A DNA stretch of 64,000 bases from Paenarthrobacter sp. A20 (GTDB lineage Bacteria; Actinomycetota; Actinomycetes; Actinomycetales; Micrococcaceae): positions 2,790,001 through 2,854,000 of the forward strand of contig NZ_JALJWH010000001.1 in assembly GCF_024168825.1 (NCBI RefSeq). The letters run 5' to 3'. Positions 5,892 through 15,459 of this stretch are shown one piece after another. Every line of letters starts with the position of its first letter. Position 1 is the stretch's first letter. A model generated the notes under the pieces. It saw only the letters and a program-made list of their open reading frames with translations. It made no database searches and was not told where the DNA came from. The position numbers and the translations under genes were made by a program.

Positions 5892-6758
5892 ATGAAGAAG
5901 CAGAACGTTGCTTTGCTTGTCGGGGCTGCAGTTATGGCTTTGACGTCCTCGCTTGGTGGAGCCGCAACAGCGTCAGAGCCGACGCCGCAAGTAGCCTCCG
6001 CCGAGGTCCAACCTGTATCGCACACAGTGGACCCGTCGCAGACGTCCGGTTCCGCCGCGTCAGCATTGGCAGACAGATACACGATTGCCGCACCGTCCAA
6101 GAACGGCGGCGCCTCCACGGACTCAGTCATCGGTGCGGATGGTCGCGTCCGCATCACTAACACCACCGCTGCACCCAACCGCTCCATCGTGCAGATTGAG
6201 TTCAACGGCGGCTACATCTGCTCCGGTGCCCTGATTTCCGATGACACCGTGCTGACTGCCGGGCACTGCGTGCATGAGGGTGGCACGGGATCGACAGCTG
6301 ACTACTCCTGGGGCGTCAAAGTGGCGCCGGGGCGCAATGGATCAACCGATCCCTACGGTACGTGCGGCGCCACACAACTCCTGACGGACCAGCGCTGGAT
6401 CGACTCGGCGAACACCAACGCCGACTGGGGCGTCATCAAACTCGACTGCACCATCGGCAACACCACGGGCTGGCTTAACTACACCGGTACCACCGCCAGC
6501 CTGAATGGCACCAGCACAACGGTGCGCGGCTACCCGGGGGACAAAGCGTTCGGCACCATGTGGTCCATGACCGGCCCCATTGAGAGCACCACCACCGAGA
6601 AGGTCTACTACAAGATGGATACCTATGGTGGCCAGAGTGGTGCCCCCGTCTACAACAGCTCCAACACCATCATGGCCATCCACACCAACGGCGGCAGCTC
6701 CAACTCGGGTACCCGCATCACACCCACGCTGGCGAACTACCTGACGTCGGTGAAGTAG
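5892..6758 (+). CDS. Secreted trypsin-like serine protease, glutamyl endopeptidase (S1B/V8-like) type
   Basis: The product has 288 residues. It has a typical Sec signal peptide (MKKQNVALLVGAAVMALTSS..., cleavage likely near the ATAS region) and a pro-region of about 60 residues. The mature domain carries a chymotrypsin-fold triad: His125 in TAGHCV, Asp178 in ADWGVIKLD and Ser249 in GGQSGAPV. Cys pairs flank the active site (GGYICSGALIS...GHC; GTCGATQ...LDC). The YGGQSGAPVY stretch and late HTNG resemble Glu-specific endopeptidases of the V8 family. It is probably exported, self-processed and used for extracellular protein breakdown. It stands alone between two terminators, with the SD-like gaaagg before the ATG. 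Confidence 0.88.
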   Translation: MKKQNVALLVGAAVMALTSSLGGAATASEPTPQVASAEVQPVSHTVDPSQTSGSAASALADRYTIAAPSKNGGASTDSVIGADGRVRITNTTAAPNRSIVQIEFNGGYICSGALISDDTVLTAGHCVHEGGTGSTADYSWGVKVAPGRNGSTDPYGTCGATQLLTDQRWIDSANTNADWGVIKLDCTIGNTTGWLNYTGTTASLNGTSTTVRGYPGDKAFGTMWSMTGPIESTTTEKVYYKMDTYGGQSGAPVYNSSNTIMAIHTNGGSSNSGTRITPTLANYLTSVK

Positions 6759-7989: not shown

Positions 7990-8730
7990 TCAGTACAGGA
8001 TGTTGATGGCATCGTTATCTACCCCTGTCACTCGTTGGGCGACACGTCCATAGGCTGTCTGGCACATGATGCTGAAAGGAATGTTGTTGTAGTGGGCAAG
8101 TCCGAAAGCGTGACCCATTTCGTGGATGGTAGTCCCGAGAGCTGATTCGTTGCTGGTGCTGGCCAAGCTATACACGGAGTTGTTTATGTGTACCTCTGCA
8201 TACGTCCAATTGGACGACTCGGGGTAGATTGTGCCGCCGGTGGCGGAGAAAAAGGAGGTCCAGGCTAAGACGTTCATACCTCCACCAAAGTAGGCATCAT
8301 TGTGTTGATGAAAGTCCATGGTGGAGCCAATATTGCTACCGACGAAGCTGATGTAGATGGGATTACTCCACCCGGGATACATCCAGTTATTTGCTGCACC
8401 TTTGATGAGGTGTTCCCAATTGCCGACTCCGGAGGAGTAGTTGAGCCACGCCGTGACGTTGCCAACACCGTTTTGATAGCGGTGGCCGAATGTTGGTGTT
8501 GCTGCGTGGGCGCTGGTGGCCGGCAGCATGATCATGATCATTACGACCAAAATTGCCAGCAAGGAATTTCCAGCTCTTACAAATCTTCGGGTGAATTCCA
8601 ATTTGCCTAAGTGGAAAAGTTCATCCAGGGCTAAGCGTGACTTTTGATTGAGATTCTGCGGGATTTGGTGCATTTGGCCAAGATCGTATTGGGAATCTTT
8701 ATTGGCAGCGGTAGGGCGGTTTTTCATCAT
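7990..8730 (-). CDS. Secreted matrixin-like zinc metalloprotease (metzincin)
   Basis: The product has 246 residues. The catalytic motif is HEMGHAFGLAH (HExxHxxGxxH), followed by a Met-turn candidate SIMCQTAYG, which together define metzincins of the M10/M57 type. A hydrophobic signal segment (NSLLAILVVMIMIMLPATSAHA) ends in an AxA site, but it is preceded by about 50 polar residues, unusually long for a Sec signal. Translation may therefore begin further downstream. I set the start at the ATGATG near 8730 because AGGGGGA precedes it; a longer frame reaching 8778 lacks this. The mature enzyme is only about 155 residues, a bare catalytic domain with no obvious propeptide cysteine switch. Likely an extracellular protease, next to the serine protease and a lipoprotein. 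Confidence 0.82.
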   Translation of the reverse strand: MMKNRPTAANKDSQYDLGQMHQIPQNLNQKSRLALDELFHLGKLEFTRRFVRAGNSLLAILVVMIMIMLPATSAHAATPTFGHRYQNGVGNVTAWLNYSSGVGNWEHLIKGAANNWMYPGWSNPIYISFVGSNIGSTMDFHQHNDAYFGGGMNVLAWTSFFSATGGTIYPESSNWTYAEVHINNSVYSLASTSNESALGTTIHEMGHAFGLAHYNNIPFSIMCQTAYGRVAQRVTGVDNDAINILY

Positions 8731-9390
8731 CGGGTCCCCCTGTACATTTAGAACACCATTGTTCCATGTTGCGCACAAGGGTCATCCCTTATGCAATCCG
8801 AAGCTACAAGCTCCGGAAGATAGTCGCTTCATCTTTTAGGCTGAGAATGTAGAGCCAACCAGCCCATTTAGTTTCGTTTAGCTGCAGAGTACAGGAGGCG
8901 AACCTCCTTGTCAGGAATAAAGTCCAGATTCAAACGGAAACTTCAAAAAGGCATATAAATCAAGGGGTGTTTTAAGACTCAAAATAGATAGTGCAGAAAC
9001 ATTCCTATTCTCGCGTCACGATTCTAGGTTCGATGTCACTTAAGCAAAATCGCGATGAGTATGACCAGGGCCGGCTTTAGGGCTAACGATCGAGCATGTC
9101 CGGGAATTTATGACGGCGCCTGCATGAGCGATCGCTCAGGGGAGATGACTAGCACGGAAGGCTGCTGATTGTTCAGCAGGTCGTCGGGTCGCTGGTTCCG
9201 AAGGCTGGGCATCGCACGTGTTCGGCATTTCGAATTCCTCGTCGCAGAATGCCCTGCAACGTTTCGTGAGGGAGCCCGATTTGGGCATAGACACGGGGAG
9301 ATGGCAGAGTCGTTTGAAGCCTGGCTGACGGGGAAAATCCTCCCATAGCTGTTGCAACATGTCGCTGGGAACATAGCCGTGAGAGGGGGC
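8731..9390. other. Gene-free, AT-richer intergenic region
   Basis: No convincing gene is seen. The left part, AT-rich for this genome, should hold the promoter of the minus-strand metalloprotease. It contains an AGGAGG-cgaa-CCTCCT hairpin (8893-8908). The right part contains a perfect 14-bp palindrome TGAGCGATCGCTCA (9125-9138) and a CTGCTGA-TTGT-TCAGCAG hairpin (9162-9179). Long minus-strand frames here (9108-9509, 9136-9636) overlap the phosphopantetheinyl transferase and lack family motifs. Confidence 0.5.
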
Positions 9391-10032
9391 ATGATGCAAA
9401 GCCCAGTGATTGATCTGCGCAGGCTCGATGATGTGCCTGGTGCGGGCATCGACCTCAAAAAGCTCGGGGAACCTGCCCAGGAACGCGCACTCCGTTTCAC
9501 CAGTGCCAAGGACCGTGAAGAATTCGTCGCTGGCCGCGTGGCCTTGCAGCACTTCGCCGCCTCGCTGCTCTACGTGGATCCTGCCCGGCTCGTCCCCGAC
9601 TATCACTGCCCGCAGTGCGGCCCCGGCCAGGATCACGGCCGCCCCGGTTTCCTGCTCGACGGCGGTCCCGCGCCACTGGCGCTCAGCGCGTCCCGGGCGT
9701 CGGGCTGGCTGCTGTTGGCCGGCGTCGTACGTCCAGCAGAGGGTCTGCGGCTGGGTGTGGACCTTGATGTGGTCAGCCGGGTTGGCTTCGACGGCTTCGA
9801 CGACGTCGCCTTGACCGCAGCCGAGAAGGAATTCCTGGTCTCCATCCCGGAGCAGGATCGAGCCATGCAGCGCGCCCGGCTCTGGGCGCGTAAGGAAGCA
9901 TGGCTGAAGATGACCGGCGAGGGCCTGCGGCGTAACCCGGCTGAGCTGGACGTGTTGGACCTGCCCGGCCTGCGGGATGTCACCGATGCGGAGCTGCCTG
10001 AAGGATTAGTCGCCGCTCTGGCCGTTGGCTAG
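9391..10032 (+). CDS. 4'-phosphopantetheinyl transferase superfamily protein
   Basis: The product has about 213 residues, of Sfp/AcpT type. It shows the Mg-binding motif LGVDLDVV (usual GIDxE/GVDIE) near residue 130 and the second motif LWARKEAWLKMTGEGL (usual WxxKEAxxKxxG) near 175. The N-terminal half has FTSAKDREEFVAGRVALQHFAA, which in family members contacts coenzyme A. Role: transfers 4'-phosphopantetheine from CoA to a carrier-protein serine. The gene converges on the aminopeptidase-NRPS operon and overlaps its end by four bases, so the NRPS-type carrier domain is the obvious substrate. Start uncertain: gagaggggg lies just ahead of ATGATG (9391/9394). An upstream in-frame TTG at 9352 is less likely. 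Confidence 0.88.
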   Translation: MMQSPVIDLRRLDDVPGAGIDLKKLGEPAQERALRFTSAKDREEFVAGRVALQHFAASLLYVDPARLVPDYHCPQCGPGQDHGRPGFLLDGGPAPLALSASRASGWLLLAGVVRPAEGLRLGVDLDVVSRVGFDGFDDVALTAAEKEFLVSIPEQDRAMQRARLWARKEAWLKMTGEGLRRNPAELDVLDLPGLRDVTDAELPEGLVAALAVG

Positions 10033-11372
10033 CGCGCTGAAGGCAGCGGCGGAAGCGCAGCCTCGTAGAGCCATGACCGGAGAATCGACGCAGCATCAAA
10101 GCCTGGAATGAACGAATCCGCGGCCTCAATGAACGCGTCCGTGGACACCGAGCTGTGCCGGTTGGTGGCCGTCCAGTGCTGAAGGAAACCAAAGAAGGCC
10201 TCGTCCCCAGCTGCCATTCGCACCGCATGAACGGCCAGCGCACCGCGCTTGTAGACACGGTCATCGAACATCAGCTCCGGGCCGGGATCGCCCACCAGCA
10301 GATCCTGCGGCCCGGCGTCGAGCCTCTTCCATGCAGCCGTTGCCCGCGCAGCAACAGTCATGGTCCGGGATTCTTCGGACCACAGCCACTCCGCGTAGCA
10401 GGCGAAACCTTCGTGGAGCCAGATATCTTTCCAGCTGCTCACGGTCAGCGAGTTCCCAAACCACTGGTGGGACAGTTCGTGGGCGATCAGGCGCTGGGAA
10501 TCCCAGGAGTCGCGCATATGGTTTCGGCCAAAGATGGAGACGGTCTGGGCTTCCAGGGGGATTTCCAACTCGTCCTCCGTGACAACCGATGTGTAGTCGG
10601 TGAACGGGTAGGGGCCGAAGCAGTCCTCGAAGGTCCGCATCATATCCGGCTGGCGTCGCAGGCCTTGAAGAGCATCCACCGCCATTTCGGGGGTGACCGC
10701 GACGAACTGCGGCACCCGGTGATGGGTGTCGTCCACGTGCAGGGGAACCTTGGCGTAGCGGCCGATCTGCACCGTAGCGAGGTAGGTGGCCATGGGTTCA
10801 GCCTGTTCGTAAACCCACGTCTCACGGCTCGACTTGCGGGAGTGGGACACCAACGTGCCATTGCACACAGGACGGTAGTTGTCGTCTGTGGTGACGGAGA
10901 TGAGGAAGCTGGACTTGTAGCGGGGATGGTCATTGCAGGGGAACCATGAGGCCGCGCCGTTGGGCTGGCCGGCGACCAATACGCCGTCGTTCAATTCTTC
11001 CCAACCGACATCGCCCCAGAGGCCGCGGCGGGGCTGGGGGTTGCCGTCGTAGCGGATCTCAAGCGAGAACTGCTGGCCAGGCTTCAACGGGGACGCCGGA
11101 GTGAGAACCAGGTGTTCTGCCCTGTGGCTGAACTTCTGGAGCTTCTTGCCGTCCAGTTGAACTTTGCTGGCCCGCAGGCCCACCAAGTCAAGGACAATCT
11201 GCGCCAGAGGTTCCAAGGCTGTGCATCGCAGGACCGCCCTGCCGACCAGCCTGTTGCTGCCCAGCCTGACGTCGAGGTCCAACTCGTACCGGTCCACGCG
11301 GTAGCTGGTGCTGCCGTGGTCCAACGTGTAGGGGTCGGCTTCGGTCATGGGGGTGGGGATTGGTACGGTCAT
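10029..11372 (-). CDS. Short M1-family zinc aminopeptidase
   Basis: The product has 447 residues, about half of classical PepN, because the long C-terminal helical domain is absent. The N-terminal beta-saddle domain is followed by the exopeptidase strand LEIPLEAQT (in place of GAMEN, Glu retained), the zinc motif HELSHQWFG and the third ligand in WLHEGFACYAEW (HExxH-18-E). No signal peptide, so cytosolic. It starts 12 bases after the stop of the Pls-like NRPS with an SD-like GGACGG in the gap, so the two form an operon. M1-type aminopeptidases are known to degrade epsilon-poly-lysine in Streptomyces. Trimming or degrading the NRPS product is therefore a reasonable inference, but general peptide turnover is equally possible. 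Confidence 0.9.
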   Translation of the reverse strand: MTVPIPTPMTEADPYTLDHGSTSYRVDRYELDLDVRLGSNRLVGRAVLRCTALEPLAQIVLDLVGLRASKVQLDGKKLQKFSHRAEHLVLTPASPLKPGQQFSLEIRYDGNPQPRRGLWGDVGWEELNDGVLVAGQPNGAASWFPCNDHPRYKSSFLISVTTDDNYRPVCNGTLVSHSRKSSRETWVYEQAEPMATYLATVQIGRYAKVPLHVDDTHHRVPQFVAVTPEMAVDALQGLRRQPDMMRTFEDCFGPYPFTDYTSVVTEDELEIPLEAQTVSIFGRNHMRDSWDSQRLIAHELSHQWFGNSLTVSSWKDIWLHEGFACYAEWLWSEESRTMTVAARATAAWKRLDAGPQDLLVGDPGPELMFDDRVYKRGALAVHAVRMAAGDEAFFGFLQHWTATNRHSSVSTDAFIEAADSFIPGFDAASILRSWLYEAALPPLPSAR

Positions 11373-11384
11373 GATCCGTCCAAT

Positions 11385-14300
11385 CTACTTGAGGCGCGGC
11401 GCTTGTGCAGACGGGCCCACCCACGGGCTCACCGGGTTACCCATCCAGTACGTTCCGGCCGGGACTGTCTCACCGCGCATGACCAACGACGCCGGCCCAA
11501 CAGTTCCGCCGTCGCCGATGCTGGCTGCGGGGAGGATGACGCCGTGCGGACCCATGGTGGCTCCGTTACCCAGCGTCACGGTGTCCAGGCTCATCACACG
11601 GTCGTGGAACAGGTGCGTTTGCACTACGCAGCCGCGGTTGACGGTGGAGTTCTCGCCGAGGGTCACGAGGTCGGCTTCGGGCAGCCAATAGCTTTCGCAC
11701 CACGTTCCGCGGCCGATCTTGGCGCCGAGACCGCGCAACCACCACACGAGAGCGGGAGTACCGGCGGCAGAGCGGGCGAACCACGGGGCGCTGACCATCT
11801 CGATAAAGGTGTCCACTACCTCATTGCGCCAAATGAACGAGCTCCATAGGGGGTGTTCGCCTGAACGGATGGTTCCCACCAGGACCCATTTGGCAACAAT
11901 GGCGCTGAGCGCTGCTACTGCTCCTGCTGCCAGCATCACCACGCCACCAAGCACCGCCGCAATCCAGTAGCCCCACCCTCGCGCAATCCAGTCCAGGACC
12001 AACATCACCCAGACGGCGATGGTGACGGTGAGGATGACCGGCACCAAGCGGCACAGTTCCCACAAAGCCCGTGCAACCTTGAGTTTGAGGGGCGGCCGGA
12101 AGGTTCGGGTTTGGTCCGCGTCGACGGCGGTGCGGCGCAACCTGACCGGCGGGCTACCAAGCCACGAGGTTCCGGATTTTGCCTTGGCGGGGGTGGCGGA
12201 CAGCACGGCGACGAGGGAGTTCTTGGGAACGTTGCGTCCCGCCGCTGTCATGCCCGAGTTGCCCAGGAAAGAGCGTTTTCCGATCTTGGCCGGGCCGATC
12301 TTCATCCAACCGCCACCGAGCTCGTAGGAGGCCACCATGGTGTCGTCGGCCAGGAAAGCCCCGTCGCCGATGGTGGTCATCTTGGGAACGAGCAGCACCG
12401 TGGAGGCCTCTACGTTCTTGCCAACCTTGGCTCCGAGGAGGCGCAGCCACATGGGTGTGAACAGACTGGCATAGACGGGGAAGAGCAGGTCCCGTGCCAT
12501 GTCCAGGAGGCGTTCGGTGGCCCAAACCTGCCACCCGATTCGGCTGCGAACCCGGTAGTAGCCCTCCTTGAGGCCCAAACCGAGGAGGCGGGCCACGACC
12601 AGGATGAGTACCAGGTTGCCGAAGAACCACACCAAGGCGGCAAGCGGGACGGCCAGCGCAATCTGCGGAAGCGCAGTTTCCAGGGATTCGTGTCCCTGGA
12701 TGAACGCCAGGACCACCAGGGCACCCGCGAATGCGGAGATGTAGGGGATCAGGGCCAGCAAAGCCGAAGCGCTGGCAAAGGCGGAGAACCAGAGCCGGTC
12801 AACCACTGGCCGCCTGGTGATTGTTTCCGGCCATTCGTGCTTGGCTTTTCCGCGGCGCTCAGCAGGGGAGCCGGCCACAAGGTGTCCTGCTTTCACTTTG
12901 CCCAGTACTGCCGATCCTGCATCGACGTGGGCACCCGCGCCGATGGTGGCCCCCGGCATCAACGTGCTTCGAGCACCGACGACTGCACCGGCTCCCACAT
13001 GGATCTGGCCGATGTGGACGGAGTCACCGTCAACCCACCAGCCCGAAAGGTCCACTTCGGGCTCGATGTTCGCTCCGCTGCCCAAGGACAGGAGACCGGT
13101 GACCGGGGGAAGCGAGTGCAGGTGGACGTCCTTGCCGATCTTGGCCCCGAGGGCCCGTGCGTAGTAAGGGACGAAAGGCGCGCTGGCCAGGCCGATGGCG
13201 CCCGACAGGTCTTGTATTTGTTCGGCCAGCCACAGTCGCAGATGGGTCTTCCCTGAACGCGGGTAGGTGCCGGGTTGGATCCTGCCCAGCAGCACCTTGG
13301 CTGCAACCACTGAGATCGCCATCCGGCCGAGGGGACTGACGAAAATCAGCCATGACGCCGCGATCCACCACCACGAGACGACGGGTGCGGCGGCAAAGCC
13401 GGCGAAGTCTGCCAGCAGCCTGTTGGCGGCCATGAGGTAGGTGAGCCAGCGCATGCCCACCAGGATGTGCAAGGGCACGCCCATCAGGACTTGGAAGATC
13501 TGCGACTTCAAGGCGGTAGGACGGACGGTCCGCTCAGCAGCCGGACCCGGCGCGCCGCCGTCGGGGAGTGATTGCCGGGCGGTATCGATCAAGGCGCCGA
13601 CGCGCGGCGTGGCATAGATGTCCGCCACGGTGATGGTGGGGTAACGGACACGAAGGGCAGAAACGAGTTGGGCCGCCGCCAAGGATCCGCCGCCGTAAGC
13701 GAAGAAATCGGCGTCGAGGGAGCTCACAGGGCTCCCCAGCACGGACTCCCATTGCTCCACCACCCAACGGGCGTCATCGGGCAGGTTCAGCGGGGCGTTC
13801 CCGGCCTCGGTTGCGCCGGCACCGGCCAATGGCCAGGGCAAGGCATGGCGGTCCACTTTTCCGCTGGTCTTGGTGGGGAGCGAATCCACGACGGTCAGCA
13901 ACGGAATCAAGGCTGCCGGGAGGCTTTCGCCCAGCAGACGGCGGGCCTCGTCCATGGACAAGTCATGGCCGTCAACGGGGGCCAGGTATCCAACAAGGAT
14001 CTGGTTGCCGGCGGCTGTGGTCTGCACGGCCGCTGCCGCGCCGGCGACACCAGGCAAAGACTGCAGTGCCGCATCCACCTCGCCCAGTTCGATCCGGCGT
14101 CCACCGAGTTTGACCTGTTCGTCGGCGCGGCCCATGAAAATCAGGCCTTCGGCTTCGAAGCGCACCAGGTCACCCGAACGGTAGGCGCGGTCCCATCCGA
14201 GGGTTGTCATGGACGCGTACTTCTCGGCATCCTTGGCCGGATCGAGGTAGCGGGCCAGCCCCACACCGCCGATGATCAGTTCGCCGATCCCGCCTTCGGC

Positions 14301-15341
14301 GACCGGAACCCCTTGCGAATCGACGACGGCGAGGTCCCAGCCGTCCAGCGGCAGCCCGATCCGCACGGGGCCGGGTCCGCCCAGCGGAGCGGCGCAGGCC
14401 ACGACAGTGGCCTCTGTGGGTCCGTACGTGTTCCACACTTCGCGACCGTCCACGGCGAGCCGCTCGGCCAATTCGGGCGGGCATGCTTCGCCGCCGAAGA
14501 TCAGCAGGCGGACGTTTTCCAATGCCTCGGCCGGCCAGAGGGCAGCAAGGGTGGGCACGGTGGACACCACAGTGATGCCGTGGTTGATCAACCAGGGCCC
14601 GAGGTCCATACCGGTTCTAACCAACGCTCGTGGTGCCGGGACCAGGCAGGCACCGTGGCGCCAGGCCAGCCACATTTCTTCGCAGGAAGCATCGAAGGCC
14701 ACCGAGAGGCCTGCCAAAACACGGTCCTGGGGGCCGATGGGTTCAGCCTGGAGGAAGATCCGGGCTTCTGCATCAACAAATGCCGCAGAGGAGCGGTGTT
14801 TGACGGCAACGCCCTTGGGAGTCCCGGTAGATCCGGAAGTGAAGATGATCCAGGAGTCATCATCCAGCCCGGGCTTGGTGGGGGTGGAAACAGGCTCCCG
14901 TGCTGCACCGAATGGTTTGACGTCCAGGCCCGCACCGATGACAGCGCCAACGTTGGCTTCGCCGAACACCAGGCGCGCCCGCTCGTCGGGATCGTCGGCA
15001 TCCACCGGAACATAGGCCGCCCCGGCCATGAGGATGCCCAGGATGGCAATGTAGAGCTCGTTGGTCCCGGACGGGATGCGGACGCCGATTTTGTCACCGC
15101 GGCCCAGGCCTGCGGCGTTCAACGTCGCCGCAAACTTACGGACAGCCTTGAGCAGTTCGGTGTAGCTCAAGGACTTGTGGCCATCATCCAACGCCGAAGC
15201 CTCGGGGAATGACGCGCTGGTCTCTTCCAGGATGTCTACGAGGGTCCGCTCGGCGGGTGCTGCGGCGCCGCCCGGCAACTGGGGGCGGTAGGTGGTCAAG
15301 GCAGGCGTCTGCCCGGCCCCCACGGGATGTTCTGTGCTCAC
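11385..15341 (-). CDS. Pls/PosA-type membrane NRPS (poly-amino-acid synthetase candidate)
   Basis: The product has about 1318 residues. The adenylation domain (about 20-500) has IFTSGSTGTPKGV, NTYGPTEATV, YRSGDLVR and TKTSGKVDR. A carrier domain (about 530-600) holds the phosphopantetheine serine in YGGGSLAAAQL. Then come six predicted membrane helices in three pairs alternating with three hexapeptide-repeat (left-handed beta-helix) domains, e.g. IGQIHVGAGAVVGARSTLMP and VTLGNGATMGPHGVILPA. There is no condensation or thioesterase domain. Length and architecture match epsilon-poly-L-lysine synthetase of Streptomyces albulus, in which the tandem C-terminal domains form the isopeptide bonds. 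Pocket residues read by hand (GrsA numbering) are D-A-E-S-I-G-T-V-V-K; the acidic residue at 239 suits a basic amino acid. The frame also allows a TTG start at 15371; I prefer the GTG at 15341 (VSTEHPVG). Confidence 0.88.
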   Translation of the reverse strand: MSTEHPVGAGQTPALTTYRPQLPGGAAAPAERTLVDILEETSASFPEASALDDGHKSLSYTELLKAVRKFAATLNAAGLGRGDKIGVRIPSGTNELYIAILGILMAGAAYVPVDADDPDERARLVFGEANVGAVIGAGLDVKPFGAAREPVSTPTKPGLDDDSWIIFTSGSTGTPKGVAVKHRSSAAFVDAEARIFLQAEPIGPQDRVLAGLSVAFDASCEEMWLAWRHGACLVPAPRALVRTGMDLGPWLINHGITVVSTVPTLAALWPAEALENVRLLIFGGEACPPELAERLAVDGREVWNTYGPTEATVVACAAPLGGPGPVRIGLPLDGWDLAVVDSQGVPVAEGGIGELIIGGVGLARYLDPAKDAEKYASMTTLGWDRAYRSGDLVRFEAEGLIFMGRADEQVKLGGRRIELGEVDAALQSLPGVAGAAAAVQTTAAGNQILVGYLAPVDGHDLSMDEARRLLGESLPAALIPLLTVVDSLPTKTSGKVDRHALPWPLAGAGATEAGNAPLNLPDDARWVVEQWESVLGSPVSSLDADFFAYGGGSLAAAQLVSALRVRYPTITVADIYATPRVGALIDTARQSLPDGGAPGPAAERTVRPTALKSQIFQVLMGVPLHILVGMRWLTYLMAANRLLADFAGFAAAPVVSWWWIAASWLIFVSPLGRMAISVVAAKVLLGRIQPGTYPRSGKTHLRLWLAEQIQDLSGAIGLASAPFVPYYARALGAKIGKDVHLHSLPPVTGLLSLGSGANIEPEVDLSGWWVDGDSVHIGQIHVGAGAVVGARSTLMPGATIGAGAHVDAGSAVLGKVKAGHLVAGSPAERRGKAKHEWPETITRRPVVDRLWFSAFASASALLALIPYISAFAGALVVLAFIQGHESLETALPQIALAVPLAALVWFFGNLVLILVVARLLGLGLKEGYYRVRSRIGWQVWATERLLDMARDLLFPVYASLFTPMWLRLLGAKVGKNVEASTVLLVPKMTTIGDGAFLADDTMVASYELGGGWMKIGPAKIGKRSFLGNSGMTAAGRNVPKNSLVAVLSATPAKAKSGTSWLGSPPVRLRRTAVDADQTRTFRPPLKLKVARALWELCRLVPVILTVTIAVWVMLVLDWIARGWGYWIAAVLGGVVMLAAGAVAALSAIVAKWVLVGTIRSGEHPLWSSFIWRNEVVDTFIEMVSAPWFARSAAGTPALVWWLRGLGAKIGRGTWCESYWLPEADLVTLGENSTVNRGCVVQTHLFHDRVMSLDTVTLGNGATMGPHGVILPAASIGDGGTVGPASLVMRGETVPAGTYWMGNPVSPWVGPSAQAPRLK

Positions 15342-15459
15342 GGGCCCAGCTTTTCGCAGAAAGGTGAACAAAAGGTGTCGGACGTTTCCTGTACTTCACA
15401 TTTTGTTGCGTTGCTGTTCGCCTGAAGGTCGCCGGATGTTGGGGAGCCGGGCATGGCTG

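Follow-up and report, generated by a model that had tools for sequence, protein, structure and literature searches.

The window analysed here, a stretch of 64,000 nucleotides from the Arthrobacter-related soil bacterium Paenarthrobacter sp. A20, carries three adjoining genes: a nonribosomal peptide synthetase (NRPS) of the Pls type, a metallopeptidase of the M1 family and a phosphopantetheinyl transferase (PPTase). The genes and the domains of the synthetase, with the evidence for each, are as follows.

11385..15371, minus strand: Pls NRPS of 1328 codons with a TTG start (TIGR02353 match, identity to a Streptomyces Pls)
13839..15230, minus strand: adenylation domain of Pls, residues ~48-511 (PF00501 at 48-374; alignment with 7WEW at 35-517)
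13584..13769, minus strand: carrier (T) domain of Pls, residues 535-596 (PF00550; S563 in GGGSL is the phosphopantetheine site)
11388..13559, minus strand: C-terminal polymerisation part of Pls, residues 605-1328 (AlphaFold2 model, Foldseek and conservation)
10029..11372, minus strand: M1 metallopeptidase, PldII-like, 447 aa, with an ATG start (PF17900 and PF01433)
9352..10032, plus strand: PPTase of the Sfp superfamily (PF01648; the ATG at 9391 is the likely start and the TTG at 9352 the alternative)

All three genes lie where the earlier note had placed them, and the close spacing and the convergent PPTase that it described were both confirmed. The stop codon of pls and the ATG of the M1 gene, on the same strand, are 12 bases apart (11373-11384), and the PPTase gene runs towards the M1 gene so that the stop codons of both overlap by 4 bases. 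This spacing suggests that pls and M1 form a single transcription unit; transcription of the PPTase is separate and runs towards it. An alternative start of pls, a GTG at 15341, would give a protein of 1318 codons. Just past the PPTase gene lie a matrixin-like metallopeptidase gene (7990-8778, minus strand) and a trypsin-like protease gene (5892-6758, plus strand), relatives of which were found in 2 and 10 of 159 loci, respectively.

The synthetase matches TIGR02353, the profile of the Pls/PosA family, at 702.8 bits (cut-off 423.1) over positions 2-695 of 695, and it is the one match above this cut-off in the genome (5.38 Mb, the window lying on a contig of 5.04 Mb). Over 1310 alignment columns it shares 52% identity with an annotated epsilon-poly-L-lysine synthase (Pls) of Streptomyces, an extent of identity that excludes a chance resemblance. 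Its closest named relatives, by best segments, belong to P. aurescens TC1 (96%), P. histidinolovorans (93%) and P. nicotinovorans (91%), in a listing that may leave out records very near the window's own genome. In a Pfam scan (E<=0.001), an AMP-binding and a PP-binding domain appeared once each, and condensation and thioesterase domains had no match. The C-terminal part was modelled with AlphaFold2 over residues 605-1328, from a 46-row alignment of the window protein and fetched homologs, with a mean pLDDT of 90.1. The model contains pairs of long helices at about 621-695, 859-931 and 1095-1165, each followed by a beta-helical stretch, at about 743-842, 982-1078 and 1218-1316. When this model was used as a Foldseek query, hexapeptide-repeat acyltransferases dominated the 50 matches listed out of 490, at a query TM-score of 0.08-0.17, low values that fit the matching of one beta-helix at a time. 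A sequence search of the same part against the PDB brought up chiefly gamma carbonic anhydrases and acyltransferases with this fold among the best 60 of 67 matches. The scan confirms, and the predicted structure supports, the layout first read from the sequence, namely one adenylation domain, one carrier domain, six helices and three beta-helices, with neither condensation nor thioesterase domain. Across 212 full-length Pls rows (the window is counted twice, once as its copy L039), five residues are invariant, namely S563 in the carrier domain and H1253, E1184, R1108 and D1009 further on, and the motif QTHLFHDR at 1251-1258 is conserved. The earlier note had raised the possibility that catalytic residues are lost from the C-terminal domains; no such loss was found, the conserved motifs being kept in the alignment. 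The architecture is shared with PosA, the delta-poly-L-ornithine synthetase of Acinetobacter baumannii, for which three beta-helices on six helices have been predicted, and our C-terminal model agrees with the one described for PosA (PMC10522769).

The adenylation domain is 66% identical to that of the S. albulus epsilon-poly-L-lysine synthetase (7WEW; 317 of 480 aligned residues). Its pocket, at positions that we take to be those of the ten-residue code of GrsA, consists of D227, A228, E231, S270, I291, G293, T315, V323, V324 and K505 (DAESIGTVVK), the same ten residues as in 7WEW. Since the two pockets are identical, the predicted product is epsilon-poly-L-lysine. This call covers the monomer only; pocket codes do not predict linkage, chain length or stereochemistry. 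Among 211 full-length loci, the code DAESIGTVVK occurs in 191 (the window's own copy included) and DAESIGTVIK in 16, the rarer ones being DFEYNGTVTK (2), DAESIGTIIK (1) and DFECLSVVTK (1). The pocket DFECLSVVTK is that of a Pls-family protein at 33% identity in L252 (G256:C7), and it is unlike the codes quoted in the accessible text of PMC10522769. At the second pocket position, Ala is described as marking lysine enzymes, Met ornithine enzymes and Phe enzymes for diaminopropionate or diaminobutyrate (PMC10522769), and the window Pls has Ala, i.e. the lysine signature.

The earlier note had proposed a new isopeptide homopolymer. Members of the Pls family do yield several distinct polymers (PMC10522769), and the literature examined holds no product measurement for the genus, both of which would leave room for a polymer of, e.g., ornithine, diaminobutyrate or beta-lysine. 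However, the window pocket equals that of the S. albulus enzyme at 10 of 10 positions, whereas PosA has the code DMEHNGTVSK with Met at position 2, the PDAP and PDAB enzymes have Phe there, and an epsilon-poly-beta-lysine enzyme has the code DGESISVVNK (PMC10522769). Also, a peptidase neighbour is reported for epsilon-poly-lysine synthetases and, in the accessible text of PMC8117764, not for three other synthetases. On the identity of the pocket with that of 7WEW we rejected the proposal of a new polymer, which found no support, and a different isopeptide homopolymer appears very improbable. The earlier note also considered the product of this genus to be unestablished. For the chemistry this stands in the literature examined, but Pls homologs in Arthrobacter were already reported in 2021, with lysine inferred as the substrate (PMC8117764).

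The M1 peptidase has HELSH at 298-302 and a distal E321, and all 200 aligned rows keep its active-site residues H298, E299, H302 and E321 (the window and 199 of 204 hits, kept if E<1e-90 and longer than 350 aa). We take PldII, the peptidase of S. albulus, to be an M1 enzyme. As a proxy for it we used an M1 protein of Streptomyces, to which the window protein is 41% identical and whose gene follows that of the 52%-identical annotated Pls with a 4-base overlap; no protein named PldII was among the M1-homolog matches listed (120 of 6837), all of them close relatives. PldII is described as the main enzyme of polymer degradation, its translation being coupled to that of pls, and it is placed outside the membrane (PMC9223678), while the window M1 has no evident membrane helix by hydropathy, a point against our overall reading of the locus.

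The position of the M1 gene was counted in 158 distinct loci grouped by the identity of their Pls. It lies on the same strand and at most 1.2 kb downstream of pls in 139 of the 140 loci where Pls is at least 54% identical, and 2.2 kb downstream in the remaining one (L170). None of the 18 loci with Pls at 44-52% identity has an adjacent M1 gene, and in six of them a same-strand M1 gene is found 3.4-3.9 kb downstream. We consider 139/140 the fair count, because the 191/191 obtained for loci of the adjacent-M1 class is circular, this class being defined by M1 itself. M1 peptidases are general enzymes and this one is known here from its sequence, which could also suit a housekeeping aminopeptidase with no part in polymer turnover. 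Against such a role, the genomes with an ortholog at E<=1e-90 are the 31 Pls-positive ones among 41 of the genus and no others. Weaker matches (E ~1e-16 to 1e-9) are separately present in 40 of the 41, the exception being G268 (68% complete), and for the most part they lie in long frames (~800-1000 codons); a few Pls-positive genomes contain additional M1 paralogs (E 1e-41 to 1e-59). Moreover, of 216 loci with a Pls, 191 have the M1 gene a short way downstream of pls. A purely housekeeping function seems decidedly unlikely, and these results support M1 as the probable epsilon-poly-lysine turnover enzyme.

The PPTase scores 40.6 bits against PF01648 (cut-off 25) and contains GVDLD, with the catalytic Asp of GxD, and WARKEAWLK (WxxKEAxxK). 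In an alignment of the window protein with 128 of 129 hits, D137, W178, E182 and K186 are kept in 126 of 129 rows and K181 in 112. A PDB search with the PPTase returned nothing at E<=0.001. We counted a PPTase as linked when its gene starts 1.0-3.3 kb downstream of pls, i.e. adjoining M1, and found one in 107 of 190 pls-M1 loci (104 convergent, 3 on the same strand), counts that are lower bounds because a few loci end before the expected place. Duplicate loci were removed only in part. L145, which copies L051, was left out; the window itself is present as L039, and L139 and L253, on contigs of the same length, probably stand for one genome counted twice. Linkage reaches 76/100 in Micrococcaceae and 31/58 in the other families of the order, and falls to 0/32 outside the order (Mycobacteriales/Pseudonocardiales 0/31, Kribbella 0/1). 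The families of named loci were presumed from genus names, and f1-f20 denote coded families; coded and named groups may overlap. By coded family, a linked PPTase was found in 0/11 loci of f6, 4/6 of f8, 1/2 of f9, 4/4 of f11, 5/9 of f13, 2/3 of f15, 2/6 of f17 and 5/6 of f19, and by named family in 7/8 Microbacteriaceae, 1/1 Intrasporangiaceae and 0/2 Brevibacteriaceae. Conserved linkage of the three genes across Arthrobacter genomes had been proposed as a check in the earlier note, and the genes do stay linked across Arthrobacter relatives.

Linkage may also reflect the conservation of the whole neighbourhood, and three genes upstream of pls served as controls, searched with the same iterated-profile settings as the PPTase; a less sensitive flank search gave a like picture. 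In Micrococcaceae, a quinone reductase gene is kept in 87/100 loci, argC in 80/100 and a desaturase gene in 33/100, so the first two are kept as often as the PPTase and synteny alone could explain the linkage within this family. Outside the order, the quinone reductase gene is found in 1/32 loci and argC and the desaturase gene in 0/32 each. In the other families of the order, the PPTase stays after the other flanks have vanished: each control is found in 0/58 loci as against 31/58 for the PPTase, and bulk synteny was rejected as the sole cause of the linkage.

Among 41 genomes of the genus, matches to Pls, to the M1 ortholog and to the PPTase (P0003) were found in the same 31, all three being absent from the other 10 (G177, G248, G249, G252, G253, G259, G265, G267, G270 and G280). 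The 31 Pls matches are at E=0, 30 of them at 72% identity or more; G260 has only a 51% type, and the match in G271 lies in broken frames. The M1 gene adjoins the PPTase gene in 29 of the 31 (not in G009 and G256), with 27 convergent and 2 same-strand pairs (G251, G262). Two PF01648 hits, one of AcpS type and one other PPTase, were found in 24 of the 31 genomes, three in 6 and one in G268. No probability is attached to the co-occurrence because the genomes are related; it favours the PPTase as an enzyme in the service of Pls, short of proof. The PPTases beside M1 on the same strand (L254 and L255, of G251 and G262) are only 38% identical to the window's, and they may mark an exchange of the PPTase at this position. 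In G260, an M1-PPTase pair (L250) lacks a neighbouring pls, as that locus gave no Pls match, and only a Pls of the second clade, described below, is found elsewhere (L251).

The genome of the window has a second PPTase of the Sfp superfamily, encoded next to ABC transporter genes and to a frame of 3523 codons for an NRPS, and the window PPTase therefore need not be the only activator of Pls. This second NRPS cluster (L198, G000:C1:3290000-3308000, which holds 2201 codons of the frame) has modules of condensation, adenylation and carrier domains plus a thioesterase, with an ABC transporter, an MFS gene and its own PPTase alongside. The PPTase in the window might be a chance or bulk-synteny neighbour of pls, its real client being elsewhere, e.g. 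another NRPS of the genome. It is encoded on the opposite strand, it is absent beside pls in 83 of 190 loci, including every locus outside the order and in f6, and the other flanking genes are equally well kept in Micrococcaceae. Nevertheless, its retention in the order's other families, where the three controls are lost, argues against this explanation, as does the presence of a PPTase near the other NRPS. Furthermore, in the 24 genomes with two PF01648 hits the single PPTase that is not of AcpS type is linked to M1 in 23 (not in G009), and each of the 10 Pls-negative genomes has a single PF01648 hit, in a frame of 118-178 codons, taken for AcpS. We regard a chance neighbour as unlikely, and the PPTase is supported as the probable activating enzyme. 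In this sense, we lean towards the synthetase, its own activating PPTase and the turnover peptidase forming a conserved three-gene cassette, maintained or passed on as one block in several families of the order, with the PPTase as dedicated activator in place of a general one.

A second Pls clade, at 44-52% identity and with the pocket DAESIGTVIK in 16 loci, was seen in L100, L101, L104, L105, L107-L117 and L251. A gene for a membrane acyltransferase-like protein (family of PF07786, HGSNAT_cat) is present in 16/16 of these loci and one for dihydrodipicolinate synthase, an enzyme of lysine synthesis, in 10/16, mostly with no adjacent M1. The acyltransferase-like gene is found in only 6 of the 191 loci with DAESIGTVVK; L102, L103 and L106, with this pocket, have the acyltransferase-like and dihydrodipicolinate synthase genes, then PPTase and M1. 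Pls-family genes also occur on 41 records of a plasmid collection (E<=1e-100). Some of these records are as large as a chromosome; among the 41 are a linear Kitasatospora plasmid and an Arthrobacter record of 1.35 Mb, the latter at 89% identity.

The locus resembles the Pls-PldII system of S. albulus in the layout of adenylation, carrier and membrane parts, in all ten pocket residues and in the peptidase gene directly downstream of pls on the same strand (PMC4361855, PMC8117764). In S. albulus, pldII overlaps pls by 4 bp in one operon (PMC4361855), whereas a 12-base gap separates the two genes in the window. The Pls of C. variabile and other coryneforms, among which Arthrobacter is listed, are of the same family and share the pls-peptidase operon and the lysine-type pocket (PMC8117764). 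The pockets of the coryneform enzymes are identical or highly similar to those of confirmed epsilon-poly-lysine enzymes, the operon is described in both Streptomyces and Corynebacterium (PMC8117764), and epsilon-poly-lysine clusters are listed in Leifsonia (PMC10628120). Given these previous papers on the homologs, the operon and the Leifsonia clusters, neither the kind of locus nor its likely product is new. The PPTase neighbour is the sole part of the locus that we did not find described before. The main text of PMC8117764 contains neither 'PPTase' nor 'phosphopantethein', in contrast to the linked PPTase of the window, and the incomplete gene tables of one Streptomyces and one Kitasatospora plasmid record show none within 5 kb. 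No account of the PPTase as a conserved third gene of the pls cluster was found in the open-licence papers examined, which is weak evidence of absence.

Taken together, we give a probability of about 90% to the reading of the window as a complete epsilon-poly-L-lysine locus of a Paenarthrobacter, predicted from its sequence to cover activation, lysine loading, polymerisation and turnover. The PPTase would place phosphopantetheine on S563 of the carrier domain, and the adenylation domain, to judge by its pocket, would adenylate L-lysine and load it onto this carrier. As in other members of the family, the membrane-embedded beta-helix part would repeatedly link the epsilon-amino group of a lysine to the next carboxyl, and the chain would be built with no condensation or thioesterase domain. 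The adjacent M1 peptidase would shorten or break down the chains, an activity reported for the S. albulus PldII. Of the earlier interpretation, the layout of Pls, the probable turnover enzyme, the probable PPTase and the linkage are retained, and the new homopolymer is not.

In S. coelicolor, the expressed Pls of C. variabile yielded epsilon-poly-lysine chains of 26 to 35 residues, but C. variabile itself made no detectable epsilon-poly-lysine in culture (PMC8117764), and for this reason the locus in the window could be silent. The synthetase is present in 31 of the 41 sampled genomes of the genus, and many non-filamentous soil bacteria may therefore make epsilon-poly-lysine. This polymer, a natural food preservative, is used by industry and is made in Streptomyces. 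If the linked PPTase is a dedicated activator, it would be an obvious co-expression helper for a Pls that is silent in a new host.
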